From a virus, in IMG/VR virus record IMGVR_UViG_3300025646_000254, positions 1 to 27,742 of that record: a stretch of DNA of 27,742 bases. One strand, given 5' to 3'. The translations under genes were made by a program, and so were the position numbers. The notes beneath the pieces are model-generated. The model ran no database searches and was not told where the DNA came from. It saw nothing but the letters and a program-made list of their open reading frames with translations. Shown piece after piece: positions 1 to 27,742 of this stretch (within the stretch, counting starts at the first letter, position 1; the number at the start of each line of letters is the position of its first letter).

Positions 1-317
1 GCCATACTATCCGCTATCTGTGTTGGTGTAAAACCAATTTTTAATAGATAAGCAAGAATAGCTTGAGGACTGTTTTTAGATCGGCCAGCAACCTGAGCAA
101 TTTCAGAATCACTAACGTCCTGCTTCAAACCACCTCGACGTTCTTTTAGTTTATCTGAATTAAATAAGTATACCCAGTCTTTCCAGTATTGAGCTTGATC
201 GGCAAATGCCATTGCAGCTTTAGCTGGGTTGTTATCAGACCAGTTAATAAAGTTGGTAAATGATAACATCTGTAGCAATGCAGAACGGCGGTTGAAGAAC
301 ATGATAGCCCCAGTAGA
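1..317 (-). other. C-terminal LPD38-like block of the giant protein (partial)
   Basis: Residues about 2039-2143, running off the window. The segment contains FFNRRSALLQMLSFTNFINW followed by SDNNP, an aromatic-rich helix and an ERRGG motif. This arrangement (RRSAxLQ, then FxNW, then FADQxQYWxDW) is typical of large-polyvalent-protein associated domains near the C-terminus of marine phage internal proteins. The LPD38 name is given from memory of the family pattern, without a profile search. The rest of the protein lies to the left of base 1. Confidence 0.45.
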
Positions 318-3300
318 GCCGTTAATCCAGTTCAACCATTTGTTCATTTGTCGGTTTGCACCAGAAGGACGGTTCACACCACTCTTCATAGAATACAAAG
401 CATCCTCAATAGCTTCACGATGTGCACGACCCTTGATTGCTTCAATCTTATTAAGGTTTTCCTCACTAAAGATTGCATCTGCATTTTCAATAAACTGAGC
501 TAAAATCTCTTTACGCCCAATCTTTTCAGTCATGCTGTTAAGATCCGCTAATACAGAATCACCTTCCCAAAATTCAGATGGTTTAGGCCATGTTTCTTTG
601 CGCCCAACAATCATCAATGCCTCACCTAAATCCGCTAATTGCGGATTATCTAAGATTGCATCTTCTAATAACGATTGGTCTTCAGCACTAAGCCCGGGAA
701 TATTAGTACCTTGAGATGCCCACATATAAACGCGTAGTGCATGGTCATATGTAAATGGTGTGCCCGCAATAGGCTCACTAAGCATTTTATATTCCTCCTT
801 AAATTCAGTTGTAACAACTTTAAACTCGCGCTTAATTTGTTGGCGCATAGTATCAATAGCTGCAACGCCTTTAAAGTAAGGCTCCATAAGATTCTTTTCA
901 AAGAACGCCATGTCTCTGTCTCCCTGAGCACCCTTGCCTGCAAATGCGTAATGTACCAATCCTCTAAAGTCGTCTGCACCAGGAGCAATGAAGAATTTAA
1001 ATCTACCTTTACCTTTACCTGCTAGCTGACCTCTAATTCTAGAAAATTGTTGCTCAGCGGATATTCCACTGCCGCGTTCAAGCATTCTATTAAACTCACC
1101 GTTTAATACTTGCGCAGGAGGGAATCCTTTAGAATATTTTCTTTGCCCGTCAACAAACCTATCTTCTATTAAAGCCGTTTGAGCTAATGCACTTGATATT
1201 TTAGATTTTACTATTTCATTTTTGCTTTTAAAGTCTTTAATAATTTTTGCAAACCTTTCATCCGATGTATTTTTAATAAAATTAATTAGCTTGTCACTAA
1301 TATATTTACCGTTTTCATCAACACCGGCTACTGAAGCATATGAGTTACCAGACATTAAAATAAGCTCTTCCGGGTTTAATCCGGTTTCTTTATTAAAATA
1401 TCTTTCGCCGTAATTTCCATTTATAGGATCATAGTCGGCCGGCATAGCCTCTTTAAGATTTGTTTCATCCAATATTTTATTAAACTCTTTTTTGAAAGCT
1501 ATTAAAACATAATTTCTTGTGATAAATCTGTAGTCTCTTTCAAAATCTGTAAGTGGATTTGGTTTTTGTAACGCTGTTTCAAGCAAAATCCTACCAATAA
1601 AAGAGTTTGGGCTTGCATGCTCTTTTATAATATTTTTAAACGTACCATATCCTTTAGAATAACCAGCTATCCCCGCACCCATTCTTTGCGGGTGGTTTGA
1701 ATCACTATGCGAAGAAGCTATGTAAGTACCTATAAATCTTGCTGCTTCGCCGTTTGAATTAGGATCTTTCATTTCTTCTTGGATAATAGAATTAAATCTT
1801 AACCACATTTCTCTATGTATGGTTTCAACCATTCTATTATAGCGGAGCACGTCACCCGCTTTCATGTATTCCTTTAATTCCTCCTCTGTTTCTAAAATAT
1901 TTTCTTGTGTAAGAAGTTTCCCATTTTTGCCTTTAATCCGATATCCTTCTAAATTTTTAAGAGGTAGACCCCACTTTATAGGTTTAACGCCTGGTATAGG
2001 ATTATTTTTTTCATCTAACCCTAATTCTGTTTTAATTATGTCGCGGAACTTTTTAAATTGTTCAGCATTTTTTCTCATACCGTGGCTATCGGCATTACCT
2101 ATTAAGCTTGTATAAATAGAATTTTCAGGGAAGAAAAATTCTTTTGGAAAATTAGGTGCAATCTTTTCTTTAAATATATTTATAAACTTATATAAATCTT
2201 CTTCGTTCTTAAGATTGTATCTCCCGTTTTCTTTTCCAAATTGTCCCTTTAACGTTTCATCTATTGTGTTATTATAAAATCTACGTTTTGCATCAATATT
2301 AAAAAGAATTTCGCTAACAGTAGATTTTTTATAATTGTCTTGTTGCTTTTTACTTAAAGAGTATTTAACATTACCACGCTCAGATTGTCTTACGAATTCC
2401 GGTCCTAAGTTTTCAGCATTTTCAACACCTAATCGTTGTTGATTTTCAATAAGTGCTTGAGCTATAGGGCTATTAGGGTCTTGAAGTGCTTCTTTAATAA
2501 TATCAAATGACAATTCTTCAGCCATTGCTTTAGCTAAAGATTCTTTCTTACCTCTAATAGGATTGCCGTCAGGTTGTAATATAGTGGCTAAAAAGTCCGC
2601 ATCGGATATAACAATAGCTGCTCTAGGTAAACGTCTTACTAAGTCAGCACCGGAAGTTCTACCAGCTAAATCAGTAGTCGTTTTTTCTCTATCAATCTTT
2701 TTACCTTTCCAGTCGCTTGTCCATACACCATTAACGCTTTTTTGAACGGCAATAGGCATAGCCGTGCTTAACCATGTGGTAGACATGTTTTCAAGAATAG
2801 CCGCCTTGTTACGCAATAAAAATTTACGAAGCTCACCGTCTTTTTTGCCACCCATTGCTGTTTTAAGGTCGATATCGGCTTGCTTACCCATTTCGTTTTT
2901 AATCTCCTTAATAATAGGAGTAACAGTAACGTTCTTGCTTACCTTGGCATCAATACGAGATTTTAAAAGACGTACTGTTCTAAGTACTTTACCTTCAATA
3001 GATTTAATAACTTCGGGTTCAACTACACGTCTTCTAATAAGGTTTTTATATTCCGGTTTAGCGCTTACACTTGGTTCCTCAACTGCCTCAATAACAGCTG
3101 GTTGTATAACTTCGGTTTCAACTTCTACATCTTCTTCCGCAAGTTTTCTTGTTGATTTGCCTTCTAATCCTTCAAGATCAATATTTTCAAAGTTTTCAAC
3201 CCATACTGGATTTGCTTTAAATGCATCAAGAATACGAAATTTAATACGGCCATTTAAATAACCGTAAGCAGAACCTCTACCGTCAAATTTGTTTACATCT

Positions 3301-6300
3301 CTTTGAGTATATAAACGAGATACAACATCAGAGACGGCTTCTTCTTCATCTGTGATTTGAAGACCTTTAGCTTGGTATTTTGAGAGCTGAGCCCCAACCA
3401 TACCTTGAAGTGCTTCATATAATTCATAGCTATTCGGGTCATAACCTTCAGCTTGCATTTTTTCAAGTTGGGCTTTAGCACGTTCAGCAGATTTACTCAT
3501 ACTAAACTTTGTGCCTTCTTGTCTTTGTTTAAATTCTGCAAGTTTAGCTTTTACTTCGCCTTTAAATATTTTTTCCGTTAATCCTTTAATTTCACCTGTA
3601 TCAAATGAAGCATTAAAAGATTCAATTGCGGCAAGGACATCTTTACCTGTTTTTATTTCTGTAGGTAAGCTTTCGCCTTTAAATATTTTATTCCAGCGAG
3701 ATAATAATTTGCCTTGAAGAGTTTTATTAGCGTTTGTTTTTAAATCAAATCTTCTTGATAATTCTACAACGCCAGCCATAAGCTCTTCAGCAATATCAGC
3801 TTTATCCCTTGGTTTTGTGGCATTTTCAATCCTCCCATAAGCAGCATCAATACGATCAAATTTGCGTTTAGCGATTTCACCATATGTATCTATCATATGT
3901 TTACGCAGATCTTGTGCTAAACCTATAATATCACTATTACCTTCAAAGAGTTTTCTAAATAAAGTAGCATGGGATACTTCGTGCGCAGAAACAGATTGAT
4001 TTCTTCTTTCACCTTCTTGAGAAACTATTGCAATTGGTGCATTAAATTCAGCGCCGGCAAAAATGCCGTAGAATTCCATTTCGCCTTTTTCTATAGCTTC
4101 TTTTGCTTTTAAAAGCTCTTCTTTAAGTTTAGTTTTATCTTCGTCTGAAATATCTTTTTTGTCAACAGCTTCAATTGCCTTATCAATACCTTCTTTTGTA
4201 GTTTTAGCGTATATATATTCGAAGTTTAAACCTTTTTGGGCAGCCGTTTTCATTTGAAAAACTTTTGCTTTAGCACGGCTTCTAGATGCTTCACTTTGAC
4301 CTAAAACATCGTCTTTTCTAAACTCTAAATTAGTTATAGTATTTGCATGCTTTGCAATAAGACTTTCTTTTTCAGATCGCGAAAGATTTTTATTAGCATT
4401 AATTCTATCAATAGCTCCTTTAGCTTTATATATTTGGCTATCAATGTTTAATAAAATACTTTTATCTGATTTAGAAAGTTCATCTATACGAGCTTCGGCT
4501 AATTTCATTGCAGCAAGGTTTTCTTTAATTAAACCATCTGCTTCTTCTTGTAATGCGCCAATAGCTTCTTGAACTTGCAGGTCGTTAATATTACCAGACT
4601 GCAAGTCATTAATCTTATTTGTAATCTCAATTACTCGTGCACTTCTTCTATTTGCCGCTGCTTGTTCATTGCCGGTTGTTGCTGCAGAATATATATTATT
4701 TATTAAAGATGGTGCACCAAACCCAAGACCAGACATTATAGCACCGGAAAGATATGCTTCTCCAATGCCGTCCCAAATGCCAACTTCTTTTTTATCTAAT
4801 ACCCATCTATCTGCCCAATTACTTATTAGTTGAGACCCTAGCTCCGCGCTACCCTCTTTGTTTAAACCTGTACCCCAAGTTTCTAAAGCTTTAAGGGTAG
4901 TCATTGGATTTTGCGTAAGGTCAGTACGAGATAAGTCAAATGACTTTTTAATACTTTTTTTAGCGGCTAAAAACTGGTCTAATGCTATTTTTTCAGTAAT
5001 ATATTCACCGGCACCGTACATAATACCTGCAGTGTAAAAACGTAGAGGTGATATTTTTTCACCATTGTCCATTTCTTCCTGCATTGTACGAAACTTCTCT
5101 CCAGATGCGCTGGCGGCAATTAAACCTAGACCAGCACTTGGCACACCAGCAGTAATAGCTGTATTAACTGCCTGCTCAGTAAATAAATCTAAACCAAATT
5201 CTAAAAAGTCTTCTACAGATTTAACTTTACTAAGTTCTTGACGTTTTTCAATTTTACCTGTAATATTTTCAGCTTCTTTAACAAGAGCATCGCCTGTAGT
5301 AGATAAAAGATTTAAACTTGCTTTTACAGGAATACCTGCTACATAAAATGGCACATAGCCAGTAGCTTCTTCACCTGTAATGCGCTCTTTAATCTTATCT
5401 GGTGATATTTCTCTAGCAAAGTTAAGTATGTTACCACTTGCATTTAATGCGGCTGCACTAACACGACCTACGGCAATATCTAAATTATCATAAGACCTAG
5501 CGGTTAAGTCTACAAGCTCTTCTAAGTTTTGACCAGTTTCTATAGTATTGGCCAATTCCTCATTAGTAGCCTTATATGATTCGTAAACGTCGTTATAAGA
5601 TTTGCTAAGGTCTTTATACTCATCTATTTCTTCTTGAGTAATAGATGCGGGGTCTTTCTTATATTTTTCGCCAATTTGATTTAGCTTAATTGCCGATGTT
5701 TCTAAATATGCTTCCTCTGCTATTTTATTTTTAGAAAGGCGATCAATTTCAGCAATTGCATTTTGTCGGCTTTTTTCAACCTCTGATTGTAATTTTGCTT
5801 TTTGTATTTCCGCCTCAGTTATAGGTCCGGCTGGAAAAAGTGAGGGCATATACTTTTTTAAACGACCAAGAGGGCTGTAAATATCATCGTCAAAATCTTC
5901 TAAGATTTCTTCAACTTTTGCATTAAACAAATCAGATTTTGCAGTCTTAAGGTACATGGCTTTCGCCTCAGCCGTAATATCTTCAGGCTTTGCGCCTTCA
6001 CCCAGTTTTCGTTTAGCCGGTTCAATAAAGTCGTCGTAAACATATACATCATAAAATTCACCTGTAGCCATCAATATGCCTTTAGGTGTCATTTCTTTTA
6101 CAGCTACCTTTTCAGGTGTGTCAATATTCTCTTCAAGAGCTAAATAGTCTTCAGATATATTTACAGCCGCTAGCCTTTTAAGTGCTTTATCTACCGGATT
6201 AAGATCTTGTGACTCCAATGAAGTATCGGCCAAACTGGAATCCCCAGCGGCCGTCTTCTTTTCTGGTTCCGTCGGTGGAGTTGTTTCCGCGGAACCGTTT

Positions 6301-6431
6301 AGCTTTCCCTCACTTGCGGTAAAGCCGAATTCATCCATATATTCATTAAGCTCCATATTGGAAGCTGCAGCGCCTGTTTTTAAAGCTTCTAAAGTAACTT
6401 CATTGCCGCTGGCATCAAAATATTTAGGCAT
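1..6431 (-). CDS. Giant polyvalent internal virion (cargo) protein, C-terminus cut by window edge
   Basis: The frame was checked triplet by triplet: it is open from ATG at 6431 to the left edge, 2143 codons without a stop, so the protein continues outside. Visible organisation: acidic Pro/Thr-rich N-terminus (to about 75); helical region; glycine/alanine-rich hydrophobic stretches at about 420-443 and 557-578; Lys/Glu coiled coil at about 595-730; a zincin-like domain with HEVSH at 817-821; a sigma-70 region 2-like stretch at about 1000-1077; blocks typical of phage large polyvalent proteins (MGGKKDGELRKF from 1193, PGADDF from 1817); and a C-terminal block from about 2039 resembling the LPD38 type. 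It is last in a run of three probable internal proteins behind the muzzle gene, which suggests capsid cargo ejected with the DNA. Size and domain mixing fit the polyvalent proteins described by Iyer and colleagues. Enzymatic roles are inference. A natural start at 6431 follows the previous stop by 10 bases. Confidence 0.8.
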   Translation of the reverse strand, partial: MPKYFDASGNEVTLEALKTGAAASNMELNEYMDEFGFTASEGKLNGSAETTPPTEPEKKTAAGDSSLADTSLESQDLNPVDKALKRLAAVNISEDYLALEENIDTPEKVAVKEMTPKGILMATGEFYDVYVYDDFIEPAKRKLGEGAKPEDITAEAKAMYLKTAKSDLFNAKVEEILEDFDDDIYSPLGRLKKYMPSLFPAGPITEAEIQKAKLQSEVEKSRQNAIAEIDRLSKNKIAEEAYLETSAIKLNQIGEKYKKDPASITQEEIDEYKDLSKSYNDVYESYKATNEELANTIETGQNLEELVDLTARSYDNLDIAVGRVSAAALNASGNILNFAREISPDKIKERITGEEATGYVPFYVAGIPVKASLNLLSTTGDALVKEAENITGKIEKRQELSKVKSVEDFLEFGLDLFTEQAVNTAITAGVPSAGLGLIAASASGEKFRTMQEEMDNGEKISPLRFYTAGIMYGAGEYITEKIALDQFLAAKKSIKKSFDLSRTDLTQNPMTTLKALETWGTGLNKEGSAELGSQLISNWADRWVLDKKEVGIWDGIGEAYLSGAIMSGLGFGAPSLINNIYSAATTGNEQAAANRRSARVIEITNKINDLQSGNINDLQVQEAIGALQEEADGLIKENLAAMKLAEARIDELSKSDKSILLNIDSQIYKAKGAIDRINANKNLSRSEKESLIAKHANTITNLEFRKDDVLGQSEASRSRAKAKVFQMKTAAQKGLNFEYIYAKTTKEGIDKAIEAVDKKDISDEDKTKLKEELLKAKEAIEKGEMEFYGIFAGAEFNAPIAIVSQEGERRNQSVSAHEVSHATLFRKLFEGNSDIIGLAQDLRKHMIDTYGEIAKRKFDRIDAAYGRIENATKPRDKADIAEELMAGVVELSRRFDLKTNANKTLQGKLLSRWNKIFKGESLPTEIKTGKDVLAAIESFNASFDTGEIKGLTEKIFKGEVKAKLAEFKQRQEGTKFSMSKSAERAKAQLEKMQAEGYDPNSYELYEALQGMVGAQLSKYQAKGLQITDEEEAVSDVVSRLYTQRDVNKFDGRGSAYGYLNGRIKFRILDAFKANPVWVENFENIDLEGLEGKSTRKLAEEDVEVETEVIQPAVIEAVEEPSVSAKPEYKNLIRRRVVEPEVIKSIEGKVLRTVRLLKSRIDAKVSKNVTVTPIIKEIKNEMGKQADIDLKTAMGGKKDGELRKFLLRNKAAILENMSTTWLSTAMPIAVQKSVNGVWTSDWKGKKIDREKTTTDLAGRTSGADLVRRLPRAAIVISDADFLATILQPDGNPIRGKKESLAKAMAEELSFDIIKEALQDPNSPIAQALIENQQRLGVENAENLGPEFVRQSERGNVKYSLSKKQQDNYKKSTVSEILFNIDAKRRFYNNTIDETLKGQFGKENGRYNLKNEEDLYKFINIFKEKIAPNFPKEFFFPENSIYTSLIGNADSHGMRKNAEQFKKFRDIIKTELGLDEKNNPIPGVKPIKWGLPLKNLEGYRIKGKNGKLLTQENILETEEELKEYMKAGDVLRYNRMVETIHREMWLRFNSIIQEEMKDPNSNGEAARFIGTYIASSHSDSNHPQRMGAGIAGYSKGYGTFKNIIKEHASPNSFIGRILLETALQKPNPLTDFERDYRFITRNYVLIAFKKEFNKILDETNLKEAMPADYDPINGNYGERYFNKETGLNPEELILMSGNSYASVAGVDENGKYISDKLINFIKNTSDERFAKIIKDFKSKNEIVKSKISSALAQTALIEDRFVDGQRKYSKGFPPAQVLNGEFNRMLERGSGISAEQQFSRIRGQLAGKGKGRFKFFIAPGADDFRGLVHYAFAGKGAQGDRDMAFFEKNLMEPYFKGVAAIDTMRQQIKREFKVVTTEFKEEYKMLSEPIAGTPFTYDHALRVYMWASQGTNIPGLSAEDQSLLEDAILDNPQLADLGEALMIVGRKETWPKPSEFWEGDSVLADLNSMTEKIGRKEILAQFIENADAIFSEENLNKIEAIKGRAHREAIEDALYSMKSGVNRPSGANRQMNKWLNWINGSTGAIMFFNRRSALLQMLSFTNFINWSDNNPAKAAMAFADQAQYWKDWVYLFNSDKLKERRGGLKQDVSDSEIAQVAGRSKNSPQAILAYLLKIGFTPTQIADSM
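3201..3433 (-). other. Sigma-70 region 2-like segment inside the giant protein
   Basis: Residues about 1000-1077. A helical stretch with an acidic run (TDEEEAVSDVVSRLY) leads into NKFDGRGSAYGYLNGRIKFR starting at residue 1047, then ILDAF. This resembles the sigma-70/ECF region 2 pattern 'FDP.RG.F..Y....IR..ILD', which binds the beta-prime coiled coil of RNA polymerase and the -10 element. No region 4-like helix-turn-helix was recognised downstream. The resemblance is by eye and could be convergent. Confidence 0.4.
3740..4080 (-). other. Zincin-like (HExxH) metalloprotease domain inside the giant protein
   Basis: Residues about 784-895 of the giant protein. HEVSH lies at 3969-3983 (residues 817-821) and is followed about 60 residues later by AEELMA, with Glu882 and Glu883 as candidate third zinc ligands. 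The preceding strand-like segment (FNAPIAIVSQEGER) and this spacing match the gluzincin layout, in which a HExxH helix is followed by an E-containing helix. Zincin domains are a recurrent component of phage polyvalent proteins, where they may process virion proteins or attack host targets after ejection. The target is unknown here. Confidence 0.65.
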
Positions 6432-6441
6432 AGTATTTTAT

Positions 6442-7572
6442 TTAAAGTGCAGGTAATAAACCTATTAATCCTTGTAATGTTTTTCTTTCGCGCTGTTCAC
6501 TTTCAATCCATATTTTTTCAACTGGATCCCATTCGTAAACAATCCAACTATCTTTACCTGACGGTGATACTTTAGTATTTTCGTCAATTTTAAATGGTAC
6601 TCTAGCATTAAAGGCGCTTTCAATACGCTTAACAGCAGATTCATAATCTTTTTGTGCCGATGTCCGTGTATCTTTACCGCCAGCCGCTTTAGCTTTTGAT
6701 TTAACACCAATATTAGCCGCCACTTTATTAGCCTTTATAATACGATCAATCAACATATTTTTTGCTGCATCAAAACCAACTTCATCAATATCAATATCAC
6801 CTGTTGGTATTACATCACCAAAATCGCCATCGCTAATAATAGAGCGCAAGGCACTTTCGGTTTTAAACATGCTATCGTATTGTGAACGTAATAGTTGTGC
6901 ATCCGCGTCTGTTAAAGCTCTCCCTAGATTTTGCAAGTTTGAATTTGTTTCTAAAATTCCTGTGGCTTCAGCAAAAGCTTTGCGACCTGGCAATTTCAAA
7001 TCTTTAGCTGCATAATCTTTTCCATTAACAGTATATACAATATGGCCGTCTTTTATAGCAACCTTGTATTCACCACCACCACCAAAAATTTGTTCAAGGG
7101 CTTTTACTTGTTCTGGGTTTGATTGGCCAACTGAAAAGCCACCATCTTCGGCTACAATATTTAAAAAATCATTTTGAAGTTTTGAAATGTAGTCCATTTC
7201 TGCTCTAACACCTGAAAATTGATTGTTTATATTGTTCATTTCACCAACCAATTCCATATGCTCAATGCTTGTCGGGTCATTCAATCGCCCAACTCTATTC
7301 GCTTTTTCAGAAAATGAATATTTAGCATCTGTACCAAATTTACCAAGGGCAGCTTTTAACTTTGGGTCGTCTACACTATTAAGATTAATATTACCATCAA
7401 GGGTGTCTAATCTTTCCGCAATACGTTGATTAAGCTCGGCAATTTCTTTTTCTTTCTTTGCTTTTCTCCCTTCAAAATCAAAACCTTTAGCAAAAGCACC
7501 TACTAAATCTGCTTGCTTTGCCTGGGTTTTGGCAAGTTCTTTATATCCTTGTAAAATAGTTGTGTCTGCCAT
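6442..7572 (-). CDS. Probable internal virion/cargo protein (376 aa)
   Basis: Not matched to a named family. The N-terminal 70 residues are charged and helical (KAKKEKEIAELNQRIAERL), probably coiled coil. The middle holds a Gly-rich turn (FGGGGEY, about 165-171) followed by a short beta-like segment (YKVAIKDGHIVYTVNGKDY). The C-terminal third has a Lys/Ala-rich linker (GVKSKAKAAGGKD) and ends in a segment with several aromatic residues (DSWIVYEWDPVEKIW). No signal peptide or membrane segment is visible. The ATG at 7572 starts two bases after the stop of the upstream 236-aa gene, and the stop lies 10 bases before the giant protein, so all three are probably co-expressed. Position behind the muzzle gene suggests a protein packaged in the capsid and ejected; this rests on position only. 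Confidence 0.7.
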   Translation of the reverse strand: MADTTILQGYKELAKTQAKQADLVGAFAKGFDFEGRKAKKEKEIAELNQRIAERLDTLDGNINLNSVDDPKLKAALGKFGTDAKYSFSEKANRVGRLNDPTSIEHMELVGEMNNINNQFSGVRAEMDYISKLQNDFLNIVAEDGGFSVGQSNPEQVKALEQIFGGGGEYKVAIKDGHIVYTVNGKDYAAKDLKLPGRKAFAEATGILETNSNLQNLGRALTDADAQLLRSQYDSMFKTESALRSIISDGDFGDVIPTGDIDIDEVGFDAAKNMLIDRIIKANKVAANIGVKSKAKAAGGKDTRTSAQKDYESAVKRIESAFNARVPFKIDENTKVSPSGKDSWIVYEWDPVEKIWIESEQRERKTLQGLIGLLPAL

Positions 7573-7574
7573 AA

Positions 7575-8285
7575 TTATGGAAATTTAGTATCTAGCTTTA
7601 AAGACATTGACTTAACTCTCTCGCCACCAGCTAAAATGTCTTCCATAATATCTCCCTTTTTAGCCGCATTGTAAGCTCCAATACCGTCGGCTATTCCACC
7701 TGCTATTTGGCCAACGCCTCCTGCAATATTTTCTCTAAATCCAAGCAATGCTTCTGTTTGTGCCTGCAAGTCAGCCATGTCCATACCAAGCTGTGTGCCA
7801 AGTAAATCTTCTTGGCGTTGTCTTGTATACATTTCACCTTGGCGCTCCATACGTTGCAATCTAGAAGCTTCTCCAGCTTGCAAACGTTGAATTTGAGATT
7901 CTTGCTGACCAATACTCGCCGATGCGGCTTGTAAGTTTTGTGCTTGTTGATTTGCTAATGCCTGAGTAAATGCGGCAATGCCCGAACCACCAGCCGCACC
8001 ACTTAAACCTTCCATAGCGTTTGCAAACATTTGTTGTTGCTGCTGTGCTTGGAATTGTGCTTGCTGTTGATTAACAGTTAAGTCCTCGTATACATTTTCC
8101 ATGTTTGCATACGGGTTACTAATATCTTGGGCAAAATATTTAGCTTTGCTTGCTTCAAACGCCTCACGAGCCGTGGTTTGTTTTTGTTTAGCTTGGCGAG
8201 CTCCAACAACATTTTGATAAAGATTAGCTCCACCTTCGATCAAAGCCGGTGCTGCCTGTAATGCTGCTATTGCTAATGGTCCCAT
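7575..8285 (-). CDS. Probable internal virion protein, Q/A-rich, membrane-active ends (236 aa)
   Basis: Both ends are hydrophobic and Gly/Ala-rich: residues 1-20 (GPLAIAALQAAPALIEGGAN) and about 185-208 (ENIAGGVGQIAGGIADGIGA). Between them is a long Gln-rich helical part with a Q tract at about 71-84 and heptad-like Q/E/R repeats to about 180. This 'hydrophobic caps plus amphipathic Q-rich middle' resembles the small internal core proteins of podoviruses (T7 gp14-type), which insert into the host outer membrane during ejection. The similarity is in character and position, not in a proven family match. It sits directly after the muzzle gene and 2 bases ahead of the next gene. The ATG at 8285 is preceded by an AT-rich leader without a Shine-Dalgarno sequence. 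Confidence 0.7.
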   Translation of the reverse strand: MGPLAIAALQAAPALIEGGANLYQNVVGARQAKQKQTTAREAFEASKAKYFAQDISNPYANMENVYEDLTVNQQQAQFQAQQQQQMFANAMEGLSGAAGGSGIAAFTQALANQQAQNLQAASASIGQQESQIQRLQAGEASRLQRMERQGEMYTRQRQEDLLGTQLGMDMADLQAQTEALLGFRENIAGGVGQIAGGIADGIGAYNAAKKGDIMEDILAGGERVKSMSLKLDTKFP

Positions 8286-8316: not shown

Positions 8317-11300
8317 TTATTCACTGCTTATAAAGGCTTCTGTATTAACCCCAAATAGCTCTTTAGTATCTCCACTGGCTGTTGTCATTTTAACTTCAGC
8401 ATAGTATCCTATTATTCCGGATGTATTTACTTCATTACTTTTAGATACAAATACAAATTCACCCGCCGCAGGTTGTGTTACACCATAATCATCACTAACC
8501 GTCATTCTATTGCCAGCAATTGCAATGATTTCACCAATCTGCAATATATTACCGCCCCCGTCTAATACAAAAGCAATATCACCAATTTGAACTGATGTGT
8601 TTATAGTATTAACAAAGTCAAGCGTAAAGTCAGAGCCCGCAACACCAGATACATCAATACTACCTACACCTTGAATAGAAAACTCACTAGTATCAAGCGT
8701 ACCTGTTTGGTTAACGTTGTTCCAAGTGGTTGCTAATCCCTTAATATAGTTAAAGAATATACCTTCGCGTTTTTTCCAAAAGTCTACTTCACCATTTTGG
8801 CTATTGGTTGCAACCTCAGCTGTCCATCCGCTATCGCCCTCATAAGATAAAGACTTAAAGTTCTTTATGCTTGATGGACTGTCATTAATAATGCAGGTTA
8901 CTGTAGAATCGTATTGCGTATCGTAGAAGTTTGATCGCGTTTCATTTGAATGCTCCCACAATTCACCACCGTTAAAAGTATAATATTCGTTATTTAACGA
9001 TATACCAAATTCCGGTAAATAGCTTAAACGCGTTGGCCAGCCGTCTACACTTTCTTTAAAAGAAATAACTTCTTGGTCAATAGTAATATTATATGCCGAC
9101 GTAGTCTCATCATACGACCCGATTAAAGGTCTTACTTGAGCTTTCAAACCGTCTTGGAAGAAGTCAGACATGCTTTTATCCGATATGTCTGTTAGTCCGT
9201 CAATAGACAATCTTAATACCGCACCTCTGGCTTTATCAGTAAAATAAACTCTAAATCCATATGATGCAAATGATTCCGGGTTTTTAGATATCCCATATTC
9301 TCCTGCAAATGTTGAAGCATCGCCTAACACTCTATTGGTAGATACAAGGTTTACATTGCCATCAGCATTATATAATGCATCTTTATCAGCAAGTATTCTA
9401 AATACTTTGTCCTCACAAAAAGCCACTAATGAAGTGTCTCTAGCGTGCAGCTTTTGTATGCTACCATATATAGGCTCAAGGTCTTTAGTAATTTTTAAAC
9501 CAGCAATAAATTGATTAAGGTTATTTACACCGGAAATACTATTATAAATACCACTGTAAATAAGCCCCGTGTCTCTTCTTTCTTCTACATATGGTTCTTC
9601 TAATATAGAAGATACCTTAACGCCTTTGCCAACGGTTGGAGCGTTAAAGTCATCGTTAATTCGGTTTGATTCAACACCATTGCCAAAGCTGTAGCAGTTA
9701 AACCATTCTAAATCAAATGGAGTACCATGAGTTGCAATATCAAGCAAATTGGTTGCTTCATAGTAAATATCTAAATCAGCATCTTCCAGCGGCTCTGTTT
9801 CAAAAATAGCTGGATTTTGTGATACAAATATGTCACTAGTTTCGTCAAAATACTTATTCCAATCTCTAGTTTGCCGGTATGCTTGAATATTGTAATTGCT
9901 AAAACTTGTAGCTGTAACAGGTCGGTCAAATGTTACGACTCTTTCTATTTCATATTCTCCGTTTACATCTGGACCATTTACCGTATCACTAATATTTGTT
10001 ATAGTGTAGTATTCATCTTCACCGTCTCCAGGGAAATAAATATATTTACCAACTGCAAGACCGTAATAGAAAAAGTTTGCTCCAACTGCGGCGCCGCTAT
10101 CATATGGAGTTGTATCATAACCCCAATTAATAACCATAGAATTAGATCCAGCAACAGGTTTTGTATGCCATGTTAATATTGGTGGGTCGCTGCTTGAATC
10201 GTATCCCGCTGGATATGTATTTAAAATACCATTAGCTGTATATTCTAAATCATATTTAGGATTTTTTTCTTGCAATGACGACAATATATACTCATCAAAA
10301 TAAGTATCTCTATTTATTTTAACAAAGAACTTACCTTGATATTCCTTTTTAAATAGTTGTTCGTATTGATAAACTAAAATAGTAAAGTTGGTGTCAGCAG
10401 CCAATGCATCCCACCACGCAAAATCAGTTGACTTTTTAGTTTTAAACGTTAAAGAATATTCCGCATATTCAACGGATGAAACTGTATTAACTTCACCTGT
10501 TGGACCACCGGATAATATTTCATATAAATCAGTAACTTCAGCTCCGGTTAGCCCTGGGTTTGAAGTATTTACATTTATAAACTTAATGTAATTTCTGCCG
10601 CTCCATTGCCCGTAAAAGTCAGCGTCTTCTCCTGCTTTTGGGCCATTAAATCTTACTGTTATGTATTCATTATCATCTGAAGCAGGTGCTACTTTTTTAA
10701 CAAATCTTGATTGCTTTTCAACAAGCTTATTTGTTACGTCTTGCGGCGCTTGATTGCTAATATCTAGTATTTTATACTTAGCTTTTACTTCAACATATAA
10801 ATCAGAATCGTGTGCCTTTTTTAAATGTATGTAATTGTCTTCAATAAGTTTATTGCGATCAGCACTTGGAAAACTTAACCACACATTACCATCATCGGCT
10901 TTGTAAAATCTATCTAAAGCTAAATTGTAATATGGATTAGAAGTATCCTTCACCATAATTTTGTAATGTGAAGCAAAATCAGGTGCATTAGACGTAATGC
11001 TTACTCGAAGCTTATTGGACTTATTAGAATCAACCTTAGGTATGTCTACAGCCGCATCTGATGACGTAAACACTGGTGTTTCACGTCCATATTCATCTGC
11101 ATAAACAACCCCAAGCTGGTAATTGCGCATTGACTTAACTGAAGCCTCTGGCTTTTTATCACCACCGTGTGCTGTAGCTGTATAAGAAGTAGTAAGCTCA
11201 GGAATAATAGCGGTACCGCCAGTTTCTATATTAAAGTTTTGTACGTAGTTACCGTATATAAGTCTATTGCTTATAATTTCTTGCGACTTAGCTTTTTTGG

Positions 11301-12606
11301 GCACGTTGTCGTAAGCTCTTATAATTTGATTAGATTCAATTACTGGTCCAAATACATTTGATTGTACCTCAAACGTTGTATCTGTAACTGGTATTGTTTC
11401 TATTTTATAAATATTATTAGAGCTACCGTCTTTGTATAATATATCAATACTTTCAACATCTGCTGGTGCTGTATCAAAACTACCTAGCTCTAAAAAGCGT
11501 ACATAGTTTTGCATACCTTTATTTAAAGCTTTGTATGGCGTATAATCAAAAGTATTGCCAATAAATGCGACCTCAGAAAAAGGAGATAGCGCTGAATAAT
11601 TATTGTCGATGTACTTCCAGCGATAAGCAAAACGCGGGAATTTTAATTCAAACAGTGGATCTTCTTCCTCCAATACAACATCCCAAAAATAATCAAGGTT
11701 ATTTAAGTTTTGAGATATAGAAAGTATTTCAACAGTAATATCAGTTGTTGGTGGCGGCCCTGGATTAACGGTTATATTTACAACTTCTGCACGAACAAAA
11801 TATTCATCAACAAAATTGTCATCATTTTCTCTAGAAGCACTAAATAAAATAATATCGTTTAATGCCCAGTCAGGTACACCTTTAAATTGAATAGTTTTTG
11901 TATCGCCAGTCTCTAATATATTATAGGCATCACCAGTTGTTGTTGTTGTGAAGTTTGCATAAACTTGAACGGAATCAACACCGCAACCTAAGCCAGAACC
12001 AGTTTTTAATGTTGCACGCATTGTAAGTGCGGGCGCCGTTAATGGTTTCTTTTTAATTACAGTAATATCTTCTGCAATAAAATCGCGACTATATACCTGA
12101 GTATGAACAGAGAATGTATTACCACCCTGATTAGAACCAGCTTTAAATGTTGCAATATCAATTTTACGCGGCTCATTTAAATCATCCGTCCACATTAACA
12201 TTCCATCAAGAACATTAATTCCAGTAATTAAATAAGCATCGTCAAAATTAAGTACGCCGTTTCTATCAACCAACACAGGTGCAACAATATCAGTAGCCTG
12301 GTCGTATTCAACAATGGCATCTACAGTATCGCTTGTAATAAACCAATAAAGCTTGTTTGTTGAGATGTCTTTAGTTGTACCAATGCATATAGCATTTGTT
12401 AAACCGAAGTTGTCATCCCAGTCACCCGCGCCTTCAAAGTTTTTCTTAGTATTACCTAGTATGTTTTCAATCGCACCAACATCAGAACCTTCAGATGTGC
12501 TTATCTGTATATTCTGAGCATCGCGATATTCGCCGGCTGGTACTAACCTCTCATCAAGGTCTTTATTCATTCTACCACGTACGAAATTGCGCTGTAGTTT
12601 TGCCAT
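8317..12606 (-). CDS. Tail muzzle/nozzle-like stabilisation protein (1429 aa)
   Basis: A very large, beta-rich, Asp/Asn/Tyr-rich protein. The N-terminus (MAKLQRNFVRGRMNKDLDER, then LVPAGEYRDAQNI) is a characteristic opening of marine and crAss-like phage structural proteins often labelled 'stabilisation protein'. In crAss-like virions the corresponding muzzle protein forms the distal tail tip, equivalent to T7 gp12 or P22 gp10. The chain alternates strands and turns with few long helices, as expected for propeller and Ig-like domains. A mid-chain segment (FRILADKDALYNADGNVNLV, then TNRVLGDASTFAGEYGISKN) and the following SFASYGFRVYF look propeller-like. The gene follows the second ring protein (stop and start 3 bases apart) and precedes the internal proteins, the same order as in crAss-like genomes. 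Assignment to muzzle is an inference from order, size and N-terminus. Confidence 0.7.
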   Translation of the reverse strand: MAKLQRNFVRGRMNKDLDERLVPAGEYRDAQNIQISTSEGSDVGAIENILGNTKKNFEGAGDWDDNFGLTNAICIGTTKDISTNKLYWFITSDTVDAIVEYDQATDIVAPVLVDRNGVLNFDDAYLITGINVLDGMLMWTDDLNEPRKIDIATFKAGSNQGGNTFSVHTQVYSRDFIAEDITVIKKKPLTAPALTMRATLKTGSGLGCGVDSVQVYANFTTTTTGDAYNILETGDTKTIQFKGVPDWALNDIILFSASRENDDNFVDEYFVRAEVVNITVNPGPPPTTDITVEILSISQNLNNLDYFWDVVLEEEDPLFELKFPRFAYRWKYIDNNYSALSPFSEVAFIGNTFDYTPYKALNKGMQNYVRFLELGSFDTAPADVESIDILYKDGSSNNIYKIETIPVTDTTFEVQSNVFGPVIESNQIIRAYDNVPKKAKSQEIISNRLIYGNYVQNFNIETGGTAIIPELTTSYTATAHGGDKKPEASVKSMRNYQLGVVYADEYGRETPVFTSSDAAVDIPKVDSNKSNKLRVSITSNAPDFASHYKIMVKDTSNPYYNLALDRFYKADDGNVWLSFPSADRNKLIEDNYIHLKKAHDSDLYVEVKAKYKILDISNQAPQDVTNKLVEKQSRFVKKVAPASDDNEYITVRFNGPKAGEDADFYGQWSGRNYIKFINVNTSNPGLTGAEVTDLYEILSGGPTGEVNTVSSVEYAEYSLTFKTKKSTDFAWWDALAADTNFTILVYQYEQLFKKEYQGKFFVKINRDTYFDEYILSSLQEKNPKYDLEYTANGILNTYPAGYDSSSDPPILTWHTKPVAGSNSMVINWGYDTTPYDSGAAVGANFFYYGLAVGKYIYFPGDGEDEYYTITNISDTVNGPDVNGEYEIERVVTFDRPVTATSFSNYNIQAYRQTRDWNKYFDETSDIFVSQNPAIFETEPLEDADLDIYYEATNLLDIATHGTPFDLEWFNCYSFGNGVESNRINDDFNAPTVGKGVKVSSILEEPYVEERRDTGLIYSGIYNSISGVNNLNQFIAGLKITKDLEPIYGSIQKLHARDTSLVAFCEDKVFRILADKDALYNADGNVNLVSTNRVLGDASTFAGEYGISKNPESFASYGFRVYFTDKARGAVLRLSIDGLTDISDKSMSDFFQDGLKAQVRPLIGSYDETTSAYNITIDQEVISFKESVDGWPTRLSYLPEFGISLNNEYYTFNGGELWEHSNETRSNFYDTQYDSTVTCIINDSPSSIKNFKSLSYEGDSGWTAEVATNSQNGEVDFWKKREGIFFNYIKGLATTWNNVNQTGTLDTSEFSIQGVGSIDVSGVAGSDFTLDFVNTINTSVQIGDIAFVLDGGGNILQIGEIIAIAGNRMTVSDDYGVTQPAAGEFVFVSKSNEVNTSGIIGYYAEVKMTTASGDTKELFGVNTEAFISSE

Positions 12607-22498: not shown

Positions 22499-22771
22499 TT
22501 TAGATCTTCTTTCCGCAAAACCCTTAAAAGCCTCTTTCTTTTCCTCAGCGGGTCTGTTTTCTAATACTCTTTCTTCCTCTTGAATACGGTTTAATATCTC
22601 AAATGCATCAAATATGGCAAGCTTCTTAGTAGCTGCTGCATTCTTAAGACGGTCGGCTGATACATCATCTTCTGTATTAGTGATGATTTTTTCTTCAGCG
22701 ACTTTTATAAGTTCCTCAACTGCTTTGTGCCCAGCTAGGATTATACTCTTCTTCGTCTCCTTGATATTCAT
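22496..22771 (-). CDS. Small helical protein in terminase-small-subunit position (91 aa)
   Basis: Start chosen at ATG 22771 (MNIKETKKSIILAGHKAVEE); the frame is open further upstream to 22885, but that extension (with VYPPIKLQLN) would overlap the co-chaperonin gene almost completely and has no protein-like character. The 91 residues are nearly all helical and charged: an N-terminal helix (KAVEELIKVAEEKII), an acidic turn with Asp/Asn (NTEDDVSADRLKNAAATKKL), a second helix (AIFDAFEILNRIQEEERVLE) and a basic/acidic tail. It is coupled to terL by TAATG. Small size, two-helix build and position immediately before terL make a small-terminase-like role possible, but there is no recognisable DNA-binding motif. 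It overlaps the preceding gene by 56 bases. Confidence 0.6.
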   Translation of the reverse strand: MNIKETKKSIILAGHKAVEELIKVAEEKIITNTEDDVSADRLKNAAATKKLAIFDAFEILNRIQEEERVLENRPAEEKKEAFKGFAERRSK

Positions 22772-23306
22772 ATTTAATTGTAATTTTATTGGCGGGTACA
22801 CGATACAATCGTTCACCCTCGATATTAAATTCGTATTCCATACCAGGAACAAAACCCACAAGGTCTCCTCTATTAAAATCTGCATTAGGGTGTTTAATAA
22901 TCCCTATTGCAGCGCGTTCATGCACATTACTCCAAATGTTTGTTGCTTTCAGCGGTTTGATAAAACAATAGCCGTCAAGAGCTTTCCATTCATTGTTTCT
23001 TTTGTATGCATAAATCTGGTCTGGTTGCACAAAGAACAAGTCTTCTTTATAATATGACTTACTGTTCTTTTCTTTGCCTCTAACGTCACGGAAACGTCTA
23101 AATACATTGTGATGAACAATAATTTCATCATCAATTTCTATTTCAGTTTCAACCGCTACAGGTATTTCTTTGACAACCGCCAGCCTACTGGTGTATTGAT
23201 GGTTTTGTAATTCTGTATTTAGTAATAGTTCTTTACCGTCAATTCCTTTTTTCGATGTTGATCTGCCTTCTTTAGGCTCAACCAAGAAATTAAAAAATCC
23301 CCTCAT
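22716..23306 (-). CDS. Probable double GroES-fold co-chaperonin (196 aa)
   Basis: Start set at ATG 23306, which overlaps the upstream stop as TAATG; a TTG two codons earlier is less likely. Two successive GroES-like units are visible. Unit 1 (about 1-105): strand FFNFLVEP, a polar mobile-loop-like stretch (SKKGIDGKELLLNT), then AVVKEIP, IDDEIIVHHNVFR and LFFVQPDQIYAYK, the order seen in Cpn10 (loop, 'G.V..IG', 'vGD.V.f', 'e.DIlA'). Unit 2 (about 110-185): GYCFIKPL, AAIGIIKHPN, NRGDLVGFVPG, then EYEFNIEGERLYRVPANKIT, but with a short loop. Phage GroES substitutes (T4 gp31 type) pair with host GroEL to fold the capsid protein; position just before terL and capsid genes fits. The tail is acidic (GDEEEYNPSW). 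Assigned by eye; a different OB/beta-barrel protein is the alternative. Confidence 0.5.
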   Translation of the reverse strand: MRGFFNFLVEPKEGRSTSKKGIDGKELLLNTELQNHQYTSRLAVVKEIPVAVETEIEIDDEIIVHHNVFRRFRDVRGKEKNSKSYYKEDLFFVQPDQIYAYKRNNEWKALDGYCFIKPLKATNIWSNVHERAAIGIIKHPNADFNRGDLVGFVPGMEYEFNIEGERLYRVPANKITIKYEYQGDEEEYNPSWAQSS

Positions 23307-23308
23307 TA
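23304..23308 (-). promoter_or_regulatory. TAATG stop-start overlap before the co-chaperonin gene
   Basis: The TAA of the 72-aa gene and the ATG of the 196-aa gene share one base. This decides the start of the latter, since the alternative TTG lies inside the upstream coding sequence. Confidence 0.65.
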
Positions 23309-23524
23309 CCAACTTAAATCGTATTCTACAGAAACGGCCATGTTCTTATTAAAATCCTTCCATGGCATAACCATATCACCCTTTTGAATATAGACAGAGT
23401 ACTTTTCTTCCTCTTCTATAATGTTAACTATGGTATGACCGCCATACACTTCCTGTCCAACAGAATAGTGCATGGCGTCATTTTTATAGTCCTTACCGAT
23501 ACTAATCTTCCTGATTATCTGCAT
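23306..23524 (-). CDS. Small conserved hypothetical protein (72 aa)
   Basis: No named family recognised. The sequence is beta-like: ISIGKDYKNDAMHYSVGQEV, a turn (YGGHT), IVNIIEEEEKYSVYIQ, then MPWKDFNKNMAVSVEYDL. The pattern 'IG.DYK.AMHY.VGQ' with a later 'W..FN.NM..S.EY' has the look of a conserved small protein found beside structural genes of marine phages. It overlaps the end of the upstream 78-aa gene by 23 bases and is coupled to the co-chaperonin gene by TAATG, so the whole run is translated as a unit. The ATG at 23524 is the first in the frame; the internal ATG before HYSV would lose the conserved-looking N-terminus. Confidence 0.6.
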   Translation of the reverse strand: MQIIRKISIGKDYKNDAMHYSVGQEVYGGHTIVNIIEEEEKYSVYIQKGDMVMPWKDFNKNMAVSVEYDLSW

Positions 23525-26037: not shown

Positions 26038-27742
26038 TTATTGATAAGTATGTTTTAAAGCTTGGTAATTTCTAGCCACCTCCTCGGCGGTCAATGCGCG
26101 GTTATAGATGCGCGGTTGGGCGATTGGAGCGGTTAGTGCTTGGTTAATGGTTGTAAAGTTTCGCCCAATCTCAACGGGTAAAGTACCCGTAGATATTGCG
26201 GTTGTGTGTGCCGTTGTCGCTTGTTGTACTCCATCAACATAAAGAACGGCATTTGTTCGGTTGTATGTTCCTACAATATGCGTCCATCCCTTTGTTGCGC
26301 TTAAGGATGAATAAGTTGCTATTGCGCTAGTATTTATATAAAAATTGACATTTGTAGCAGTAGCCTTATAAAGCAGATAGTTTCGATTGTTTGAATCATT
26401 ATGCCATCTTCCTAAAATACCCTTATTGCTTGAACCATCCCAATACACCCACGCCTCCAAAGTAATCGCATCGGTAATATCAAGACCCGCATTATCGTGC
26501 ACCTCTGCCCACGAATTCCCATCAAGATTGAGCGCACCTTGTTTCCGCACGTTTTCAAATGGATTCACGCCAGTGATGTCGCGGCCAGTTGTTAAACCTT
26601 GGGGAAGTAATACGTCGTTTTCTTGAGCAGTTCCGTATGTCGGCACATAAGAATCTACTTCCGTTCCGTAATTGATTAAGGCGCCCCAAACGAGAAAATC
26701 GCAATTTTGTGTTGTACCCGTTGATGAACGAGCGCCAAAATTAAAATAGTTACTTGAACCGCTTCCTACAATATCATAACGCACCCATTCAGTAGTGATG
26801 TCAAGCGTGTTTGTTGAACTTCCTCTTGTATAAAAAGCAATGGTTTGTGCACTTCCCGTGTTAGATTTAATCCAAACTGCTGATGTATAACTTCCCGTTG
26901 TGCTTGCGCTTGCCGTTGTTGAAAGTATAGCGTATGAATCGCCAGCGCCTCCCTCGTGTGATGCTTGAATTCTTGCCGCCGTTTGGCTTCCGTCGGGCGC
27001 TTCTGCATAATTATCAGTAACTGATAAAGATGATGAATTCCCTGATATAAGTTGCTGCCAATCTGAATTGTCAAAGTCTTCGCTTTGCTTAACGTAGTTT
27101 GTCCCCTTATTCCAATCAATAACCGCCGTTTGCGATACGGGTGCGCCGATGCCGTGCGTCCACGTTGCGCCGCTTATGGTTCCGTGGTTGCCGTTTCCGC
27201 TACCATCGTACGCCGTCGTTCCCGCACCTTCTTGCATTGGTAGCCATAACTTTAAAGCGGTGTTATCCACTCCCGTTGGCACCACCTTTTCGGGGTTGTT
27301 GTATAGGTCGGCCACTTGTGCGGCGGTGAGGGCGGTGTTGAAGATTTTGACGTTTGATATATGCCCGTCCCAAGGGTTGCCGTTCAAAGTTACATTTCTA
27401 CCAATTACGACGTTATTGGAATTTGTACCCGTGCCGCTAATTGAATGCGTTTGAGTGCTTTTTAATTGACCATTTTGGTAAAACTTAACATCTTGCCCAC
27501 CGGTAAATGAAATGGCAAAATGCACATATTCCCCAGTATTCAAAACAAACTCGCTAAAGAATCTTGTACCATTAGCGTAAAACTCTAATTCTCCATTACC
27601 GGGATATTGAACACCTACATAATAAACACCACTTCCCTTTGTAATGATTCGGCAATAATTAGGCAGTGTATCAGCCTTAATGATTGCGCAAATAGTGAAA
27701 TTAGTGAACCCGTCTAAATCGTTGCTATCCGCTACGCTTACA
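26038..27742 (-). CDS. ConA/LamG-type multidomain adhesin or tail fibre, N-terminus outside window
   Basis: The frame stays open from the stop at 26038 to the right edge, so the true start is outside; a TTG at 27543 is only an internal codon. About 567 residues are visible. Domain 1 (to about 160): a concanavalin-like sandwich with FTNFTICAIIKADTLP, EYVHFAISFTGGQDVKFYQN, then WDGHISNVKIFNTALTAAQV, the usual LamG-type ending. Middle (about 165-390): WLPMQEGAGTTAYDGSGNGN, then a carbohydrate-binding-like jelly roll opening NYVKQSEDFDNSDW, a motif frequent in phage fibres. Domain 2 (about 400-560): ITLEAWVYWDGSS, WTHIVGTYNRTNAVLYVDGV and IAQPRIYNRALTAEEVARNY. Such domains bind cell-surface glycans. 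Base composition is visibly GC-richer than the other genes, for example around 27140-27320, pointing to transfer. Confidence 0.75.
   Translation of the reverse strand, partial: VSVADSNDLDGFTNFTICAIIKADTLPNYCRIITKGSGVYYVGVQYPGNGELEFYANGTRFFSEFVLNTGEYVHFAISFTGGQDVKFYQNGQLKSTQTHSISGTGTNSNNVVIGRNVTLNGNPWDGHISNVKIFNTALTAAQVADLYNNPEKVVPTGVDNTALKLWLPMQEGAGTTAYDGSGNGNHGTISGATWTHGIGAPVSQTAVIDWNKGTNYVKQSEDFDNSDWQQLISGNSSSLSVTDNYAEAPDGSQTAARIQASHEGGAGDSYAILSTTASASTTGSYTSAVWIKSNTGSAQTIAFYTRGSSTNTLDITTEWVRYDIVGSGSSNYFNFGARSSTGTTQNCDFLVWGALINYGTEVDSYVPTYGTAQENDVLLPQGLTTGRDITGVNPFENVRKQGALNLDGNSWAEVHDNAGLDITDAITLEAWVYWDGSSNKGILGRWHNDSNNRNYLLYKATATNVNFYINTSAIATYSSLSATKGWTHIVGTYNRTNAVLYVDGVQQATTAHTTAISTGTLPVEIGRNFTTINQALTAPIAQPRIYNRALTAEEVARNYQALKHTYQ

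Follow-up and report, generated by a model that had tools for sequence, protein, structure and literature searches.

How does a phage that carries no recognisable RNA polymerase start transcription when its genome enters the cell? Phages solve time-zero transcription with promoters that the host can read or with an ejected polymerase (N4, crassviruses, P23-45). The question is raised here by IMG/VR virus record IMGVR_UViG_3300025646_000254, which was analysed over its whole 27,742 bases (the window). Its gene content is crassvirus-like, with Pfam matches to the muzzle protein and PHROG matches to portal and terminase, and it encodes a giant protein with a segment that resembles domain 2 of sigma-70. 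It is proposed, with a probability of roughly 0.45, that the segment acts as an ejected partial sigma factor that docks on the host RNA polymerase and drives early transcription, in the manner of T4 gp55 and AR9 gp226. If this is true, a domain ejected in this way would add a third answer to the time-zero problem and would account for the start of infection in crass-like phages that lack a recognisable polymerase. Since the promoter motif and the 110-residue domain are both defined, the proposal is open to testing with purified parts.

Fold and conservation of the sigma-like domain

An earlier note, made from the DNA letters of the window, described a segment resembling sigma-70 region 2 at positions 3201-3433 and left the strand unstated. 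The analysis confirmed the segment and placed it on the minus strand, where about 3201-3434 encodes residues 1000-1077 of the giant protein; read in the plus frame, 3201-3433 is interrupted by stops. Residues 979-1087 are predicted to have a sigma-70 domain-2-like fold. The domain sits inside a protein of at least 2143 residues, whereas members of the sigma-70 family are free-standing proteins of about 150-600 residues. The acidic helices said to flank the segment are partly right, as the downstream flank (residues 1088-1138) is a moderately acidic linker of low model confidence. This linker may correspond to the sigma finger.

A first model of residues 965-1250 had a predicted template modelling score (pTM) of 0.39 overall and was confident over the domain. 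An AlphaFold2 model of the domain alone, with 43 relatives, reached a pTM of 0.85 and a predicted local distance difference test score of 91. Sigma factors filled 48 of the top 50 rows of a Foldseek search of the PDB, the remaining two being an epitope scaffold, and no E-value was below 0.001. Upon VIA realignment T4 gp55 came first (Z 7.9, 2.6 Å over 87 residues) and sigma-70 second (Z 7.2, 2.4 Å over 83 residues); sigma factors made up 44 of the 50 rows, and the rest were Sld7 and helical bundles of the signal recognition particle type. The best named matches in a fold search of BFVD were phage sigma factors (probability 1.00, E 0.02). A Z below 8 alone is unconvincing for a helical domain, and the case depends on agreement with sequence profiles. 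Structure prediction for the segment named in the earlier note points to the sigma fold, as do the fold searches, the profile comparison and repeated matches to several independent sigma families.

The likeness to sigma-70 region 2 and extracytoplasmic function (ECF) profiles is weak per sequence and specific. A one-family, six-frame search of the window with PF04542 (Sigma70_r2) matched at a single place (18.5 bits, E 4.1e-5). Against all Pfam, Sigma70_r2 scored 14.7 bits (E 0.026) with the whole giant protein and 18.6 bits (E 0.0016) with the domain alone, and all these scores are below the Pfam gathering cut-off of 24 bits. The positive control, a stand-alone sigma factor from the relative G046 that matches the PHROG 'RNA polymerase sigma factor' at E 7e-22, scored only 17.4 bits and is also under the cut-off. 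Among 43 members, the Pfam scan found Sigma70_r2 in 7 and Sigma70_ECF in 3, which exceeds every unrelated family, and the NCBIfam scan found sigma70-ECF in 7, TIGR02943 in 5 and FliA/WhiG in 2. Sequence searches of the PDB by phmmer and with profiles A1 and A2 gave no sigma match, and profile A4 gave only an ECF sigma at E 0.44.

When the domain profile was aligned by hhalign with a sigma region 2 profile built from E. coli and Bacteroidota sigma sequences, the probability was 78-81% in the expected register, pairing FRGDSAFYTWL of sigma with FDGRGSAYGYL of the giant protein; pairwise E-values of this kind carry no database calibration. None of 200 column shuffles exceeded 5.8%. The profile scored 0.14% when reversed, and windows elsewhere in the giant protein, clear of the domain, stayed at or below 2.9%. 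The phages' own sigma factor reached 93% in the same test. With a shallower alignment of 31 sequences, a window scan gave the domain itself only about 5%, yet ranked it top. A small set of housekeeping sigma factors gave 0.36%, from a profile (effective number of sequences 1.6) too thin to count. Copying of the domain from the phages' own sigma factor was unsupported (hhalign 0.4%).

Two viral-contig scans yielded 33 and 80 overlapping loci, and the domain recurs in dozens of relatives. The part aligned with regions 2.3-2.4 appears in versions such as KFDGRGxxYGYLNGRIxFRIxD, KFDPSKNDSLYGYINAQLANRM, YKPESGVPLAAYINKYLPVRA and WDGKGTLSGFLGGRISFRIED, and in some relatives (e.g. L011 and L016) the segment has diverged further and is assigned with less confidence. 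Variability of the motif positions had been named in the earlier note as a sign against a sigma-like segment; K/R1048, the aromatic residues 1049 and 1058, N1060 and R1066 are kept in most of 43 relatives. Purifying selection acts far more strongly on the domain than on the remainder of the giant protein. Across 15 pairs of relatives, the ratio of nonsynonymous to synonymous substitution rates (dN/dS) was 0-0.09 in the domain and 0.06-0.55 in the whole giant protein; in the pair L074/L080, which had a misplaced domain window, the value for the domain was no lower than for the whole protein, and in L005/L039 synonymous sites were saturated.

A helical bundle that resembles sigma factors by coincidence would fit individual scores below curated cut-offs, and helical bundles can reach Foldseek E-values above 0.001 and Z below 8 by chance. 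It does not fit a profile alignment that has the correct register and scores far higher than the shuffles, near-exclusive sigma matches in two structure libraries, or a genuine phage sigma factor that does no better on Pfam. Because the shuffled profile-profile tests, the fold searches in both libraries and the selection agree, a chance match is very unlikely.

Full-length relatives of the giant protein are mostly about 2300-3400 residues long. Whole-protein tblastn searches of 50,697 phage records gave no match for the window protein or for L091, and for L033 a single marginal match (E 7e-3, 23% identity) that lies away from the sigma region; therefore, no annotated isolate was usable as a model. 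The sole relative found among cellular genomes, L125, is on contig QQUU01000066.1 of a Bacteroidetes metagenome-assembled genome (MAG), which suggests a Bacteroidota host unless a phage contig was misbinned. The L004 giant protein carries an inserted P-loop domain of the zeta-toxin/polynucleotide-kinase type (PF06414, E 1.6e-14; residues 2028-2185) that was not seen in L075 or L091.

Cargo-gene position and early transcription

In the window the muzzle gene is followed by genes for proteins of 236 and 376 residues and the giant protein, and in relatives a strand switch and replication genes come next. The order in crAss001 is gp44 (muzzle), gp45, gp46 and gp47, then a strand switch, gp49 and gp50. 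The products gp45, gp46, gp47, gp49 and gp50 were detected in crAss001 virions by mass spectrometry and are thought to be ejected (PMC10172136). By this analogy the giant protein probably enters the cell with the phage DNA, and it is gene position that speaks for the 'ejected-type' protein of the earlier note. The likeness to the crAss001 cargo (gp47, gp49 and gp50, the ejected polymerase and associated giant proteins) is one of place, after the muzzle and the positions of gp45 and gp46. The cargo differs in having no detectable sequence similarity to the giant protein, whose family profile had no match in gp45, gp46, gp47, gp49 or gp50, and in the polymerase motif DxDxD of gp50; Sigma70_r2 had no match in crAss001. 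The protease-like domain that the earlier note placed in the same chain is represented by an HExxH motif, found upstream of the sigma-like segment in 34 of the 34 giant proteins first collected, and has no match to any protease profile.

Virion polymerases fused to giant proteins occur in crassviruses, N4-related phages and P23-45 (PMC10770324). The polymerase fused to the P23-45 tail tape protein likewise places transcription machinery in a giant virion protein and couples it to genome entry (PMC10770324), with the difference that it is a polymerase and the giant protein here has a sigma-like domain. No report of a virion-delivered sigma factor was found in the literature searched, whose coverage leaves out most subscription journals.

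Near-complete relatives show no recognisable RNA polymerase. Direct terminal repeats are present in G022 (236 bp, 99.6%), G035 (296 bp, 100%), G046 (1194 bp, 97%) and G043 (147 bp, 91%), and are a sign that these are complete or near-complete genomes of 63.5-67.6 kb; they are absent from G044 (65.9 kb). Open reading frames (ORFs) of more than 1000 residues in the long relatives are the muzzle, giant and probable fibre genes. In five long relatives, neither the giant proteins nor the remaining large ORFs conserve the DxDxD motif, and crAss001 gp50 as a query gave no match in the long relatives. A search for T7-type polymerase (PF00940) was empty and uninformative, the control genomes being equally empty. 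A separate sigma factor gene (product about 253 aa) is present in all six long contigs. In G046 the annotated nonstructural genes comprise this sigma factor, ribonucleotide reductase, primase-helicase, thymidylate synthase and MazG.

A strict 33-bp motif, TTACA-N5-AAYACG-N10-GATAATA, lies upstream of genes on the nonstructural strand. It carries about 41 bits across 46 columns and occurs 7-13 times in each long contig. It had no occurrence on the structural strand, in one shuffle per contig or in crAss001. In a pattern scan, 20 of 47 records contained it, always in a single orientation within a phage contig, and the reversed-pattern control had no match. All 12 copies in the Bacteroidetes MAG G051 are on contigs C16 and C67, and C16 is probably the contig of phage origin on which a relative of the giant protein is also encoded. 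In G031 and G035, 5 nt separate the motif from the sigma ATG; the distance is 102 nt in G039, 359 nt in G023 and 469 nt in G010, and the motif is 0.9-2.8 kb upstream of the sigma gene in G017, G022, G043, G044 and G046. Since in two genomes it lies directly upstream of the phage sigma gene, it should be usable before the phage sigma factor is made. This leaves the host polymerase with a host sigma factor or with something brought in.

A two-part promoter, GTAACAA...GATAAT, was also tested and was unsupported, the actual motif being TTACA...ACGA...GATAATA. The host -7 consensus TAnnTTTG showed no enrichment ahead of either early or late genes, and a motif search of the late strand gave a weak, mixed result. 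The sequence TGACnTTnGGTAGTTATATATAATAGTA recurs about 50-70 nt before genes that open the structural gene block (e.g. G022:61127, G044:49185, G046:9943 and G035:7807) and is a possible late promoter.

Proposed docking on the host polymerase

In the proposed mechanism, the giant protein would enter the cell together with the phage DNA and its domain would dock on the beta' clamp of the host RNA polymerase, as sigma domain 2 does. The acidic linker, the helix that follows and the conserved module would take the roles of the sigma finger and upstream contact. The host polymerase would thereby start at the phage's own early promoters, and the separate sigma factor, itself complete and encoded among the early genes, would act on later genes. 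The virion-delivered domain would replace the virion RNA polymerase ejected by canonical crassviruses. A tentative extension is that a whole crassvirus-like clade lacks a virion polymerase and uses an ejected giant protein with a partial sigma factor to commandeer the host polymerase onto the 33-bp promoter, with a conventional sigma factor following.

Known sigma factors offer partial parallels. T4 gp55 is a partial sigma factor centred on domain 2. This late sigma factor (PDB 7d7c chain F) is the best structural match of the domain, with 9% identity in the alignment, and differs in being a small free protein made during infection, while the domain here is inside a giant, probably ejected protein. 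AR9 gp226 has a sigma-2-like domain, a finger, the first sigma-4 helix and a new C-terminal domain without a helix-turn-helix (PMC9209446). By that description the giant protein is similar, with its sigma-2-like domain, linker, helix and unrelated conserved module; gp226 is the promoter-specificity subunit of a jumbo-phage RNA polymerase, and no such polymerase was recognised in the relatives that bear the giant gene. Among bacterial sigma factors, the domain resembles the N-terminal domain of SigE (8b3z; 2.5 Å over 72 residues) and E. coli sigma-70 (6ca0; 2.4 Å over 83 residues). Bacterial ECF and group sigma factors differ in being free proteins that have sigma-4 and keep the DLxQE-type motif intact.

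Several observations weigh against a working partial sigma factor. The beta'-facing residues, for which the earlier note had looked to conservation, are conserved in part. In an alignment of profiles rather than a complex, the region 2.2 contact motif DLIQE of E. coli sigma-70 (D403 to E407 in sigma-70 numbering) corresponds to EAVSD of the giant protein. An acid is retained at the D403 position in 33 and at the E407 position in 32 of 43 relatives, in favour of the proposal. Against it, about a quarter lack the latter acid, and glutamine is found at the 406 position in none (S, A or D instead). Such losses, the divergent domain forms and the setting inside an ejection protein would suit a repurposed descendant of sigma domain 2 that makes no contact with the polymerase and now helps to bind DNA, to bring in the genome or to assemble the ejection apparatus. 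The low dN/dS of the domain and the acids retained in most members speak against repurposing, which is somewhat unlikely.

A sigma-4 helix-turn-helix is also not established in the giant protein: in the model a long helix without a clear helix-turn-helix follows the linker, and region 3/4 matches are weak (E 0.07-0.18) and confined to the distant members L031 and L033. A sigma-2 fold of this kind, with an altered contact motif whose Q406 loss fits binding that no longer supports initiation, could instead be a decoy that is ejected, binds the beta' clamp, displaces the host sigma factor and turns host transcription off, leaving the early motif to a host sigma factor or another factor. This is unlikely, as the dedicated early motif, which is unlike the host consensus, has to be read at time zero, and an inhibitor alone would provide no reader for it.

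The partial-sigma proposal further takes ejection and presence in the virion from gene order, and the early motif and sigma gene were seen in relatives only, the window being a structural gene block. A host sigma factor might read the early motif unaided. The relatives may also have a very divergent phage polymerase, which could escape detection because even the crAss001 terminase barely matched.

Feature coordinates and other genes

Table 1. Coordinates of features in the window and in related records (G handles)
Feature	Position	Strand	Remarks
Giant protein gene	3..6431	minus	at least 2143 aa; ORF open at contig edge; site of crassvirus cargo protein gp47
Most conserved stretch near the domain (SKNVTV..GKQADID..GGKKDG..WKGKKIDRE)	2397..3017	minus	residues 1139-1345
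Acidic linker	3018..3170	minus	residues 1088-1138; low model confidence
Sigma-70 domain-2-like domain	3171..3497	minus	residues 979-1087; predicted from model, fold searches, hhalign with shuffles, dN/dS
Part matched by Pfam Sigma70_r2	3213..3422	minus	residues 1004-1073; profile positions 1-67 of 71
KFDGRGSAYGYLNGRIKFRILDAFK	3216..3290	minus	residues 1048-1072; aligned with regions 2.3-2.4
EAVSD	3327..3341	minus	residues 1031-1035; aligned with D403-E407 (DLIQE), region 2.2
HExxH (AHEVSHATLF)	3969..3983	minus	residues 817-821; zincin-like metalloprotease motif; motif only
376-aa gene	6442..7572	minus	place of cargo protein 2 (gp46), by position only
236-aa gene	7575..8285	minus	place of cargo protein 1 (gp45), by position only
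Crassvirus muzzle protein	8317..12606	minus	PF25731 E 1.1e-11; PF25729 E 3.1e-11; phrog_14478
Stand-alone sigma genes	G017:7135-7893; G022:51466-52224; G035:18118-18900; G043:9499-10263; G044:61523-62287; G046:26412-27176		
Records with the early motif	G010, G015, G017, G022, G023, G027, G028, G031-G033, G035, G036, G038, G039, G041, G043, G044, G046, G050, MAG G051 (C16, C67)		example: L167-L170 = G035

Near the C terminus of the giant protein, FFNRRSALLQM (267-299, minus strand; residues 2045-2055) may resemble the large polyvalent protein domain LPD38, a likeness that a profile search did not confirm. A GroES-like PHROG match lies at 22716-23312 on the minus strand of the window (E 9.7e-14), and G046 encodes a GroEL-type chaperonin at 1166-2725 (PF00118, E 1.1e-57). 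The minus strand at 26038-27741 of the window encodes a probable fibre or adhesin, in which PF13385 (E 4e-46) marks a Concanavalin A-like lectin domain.

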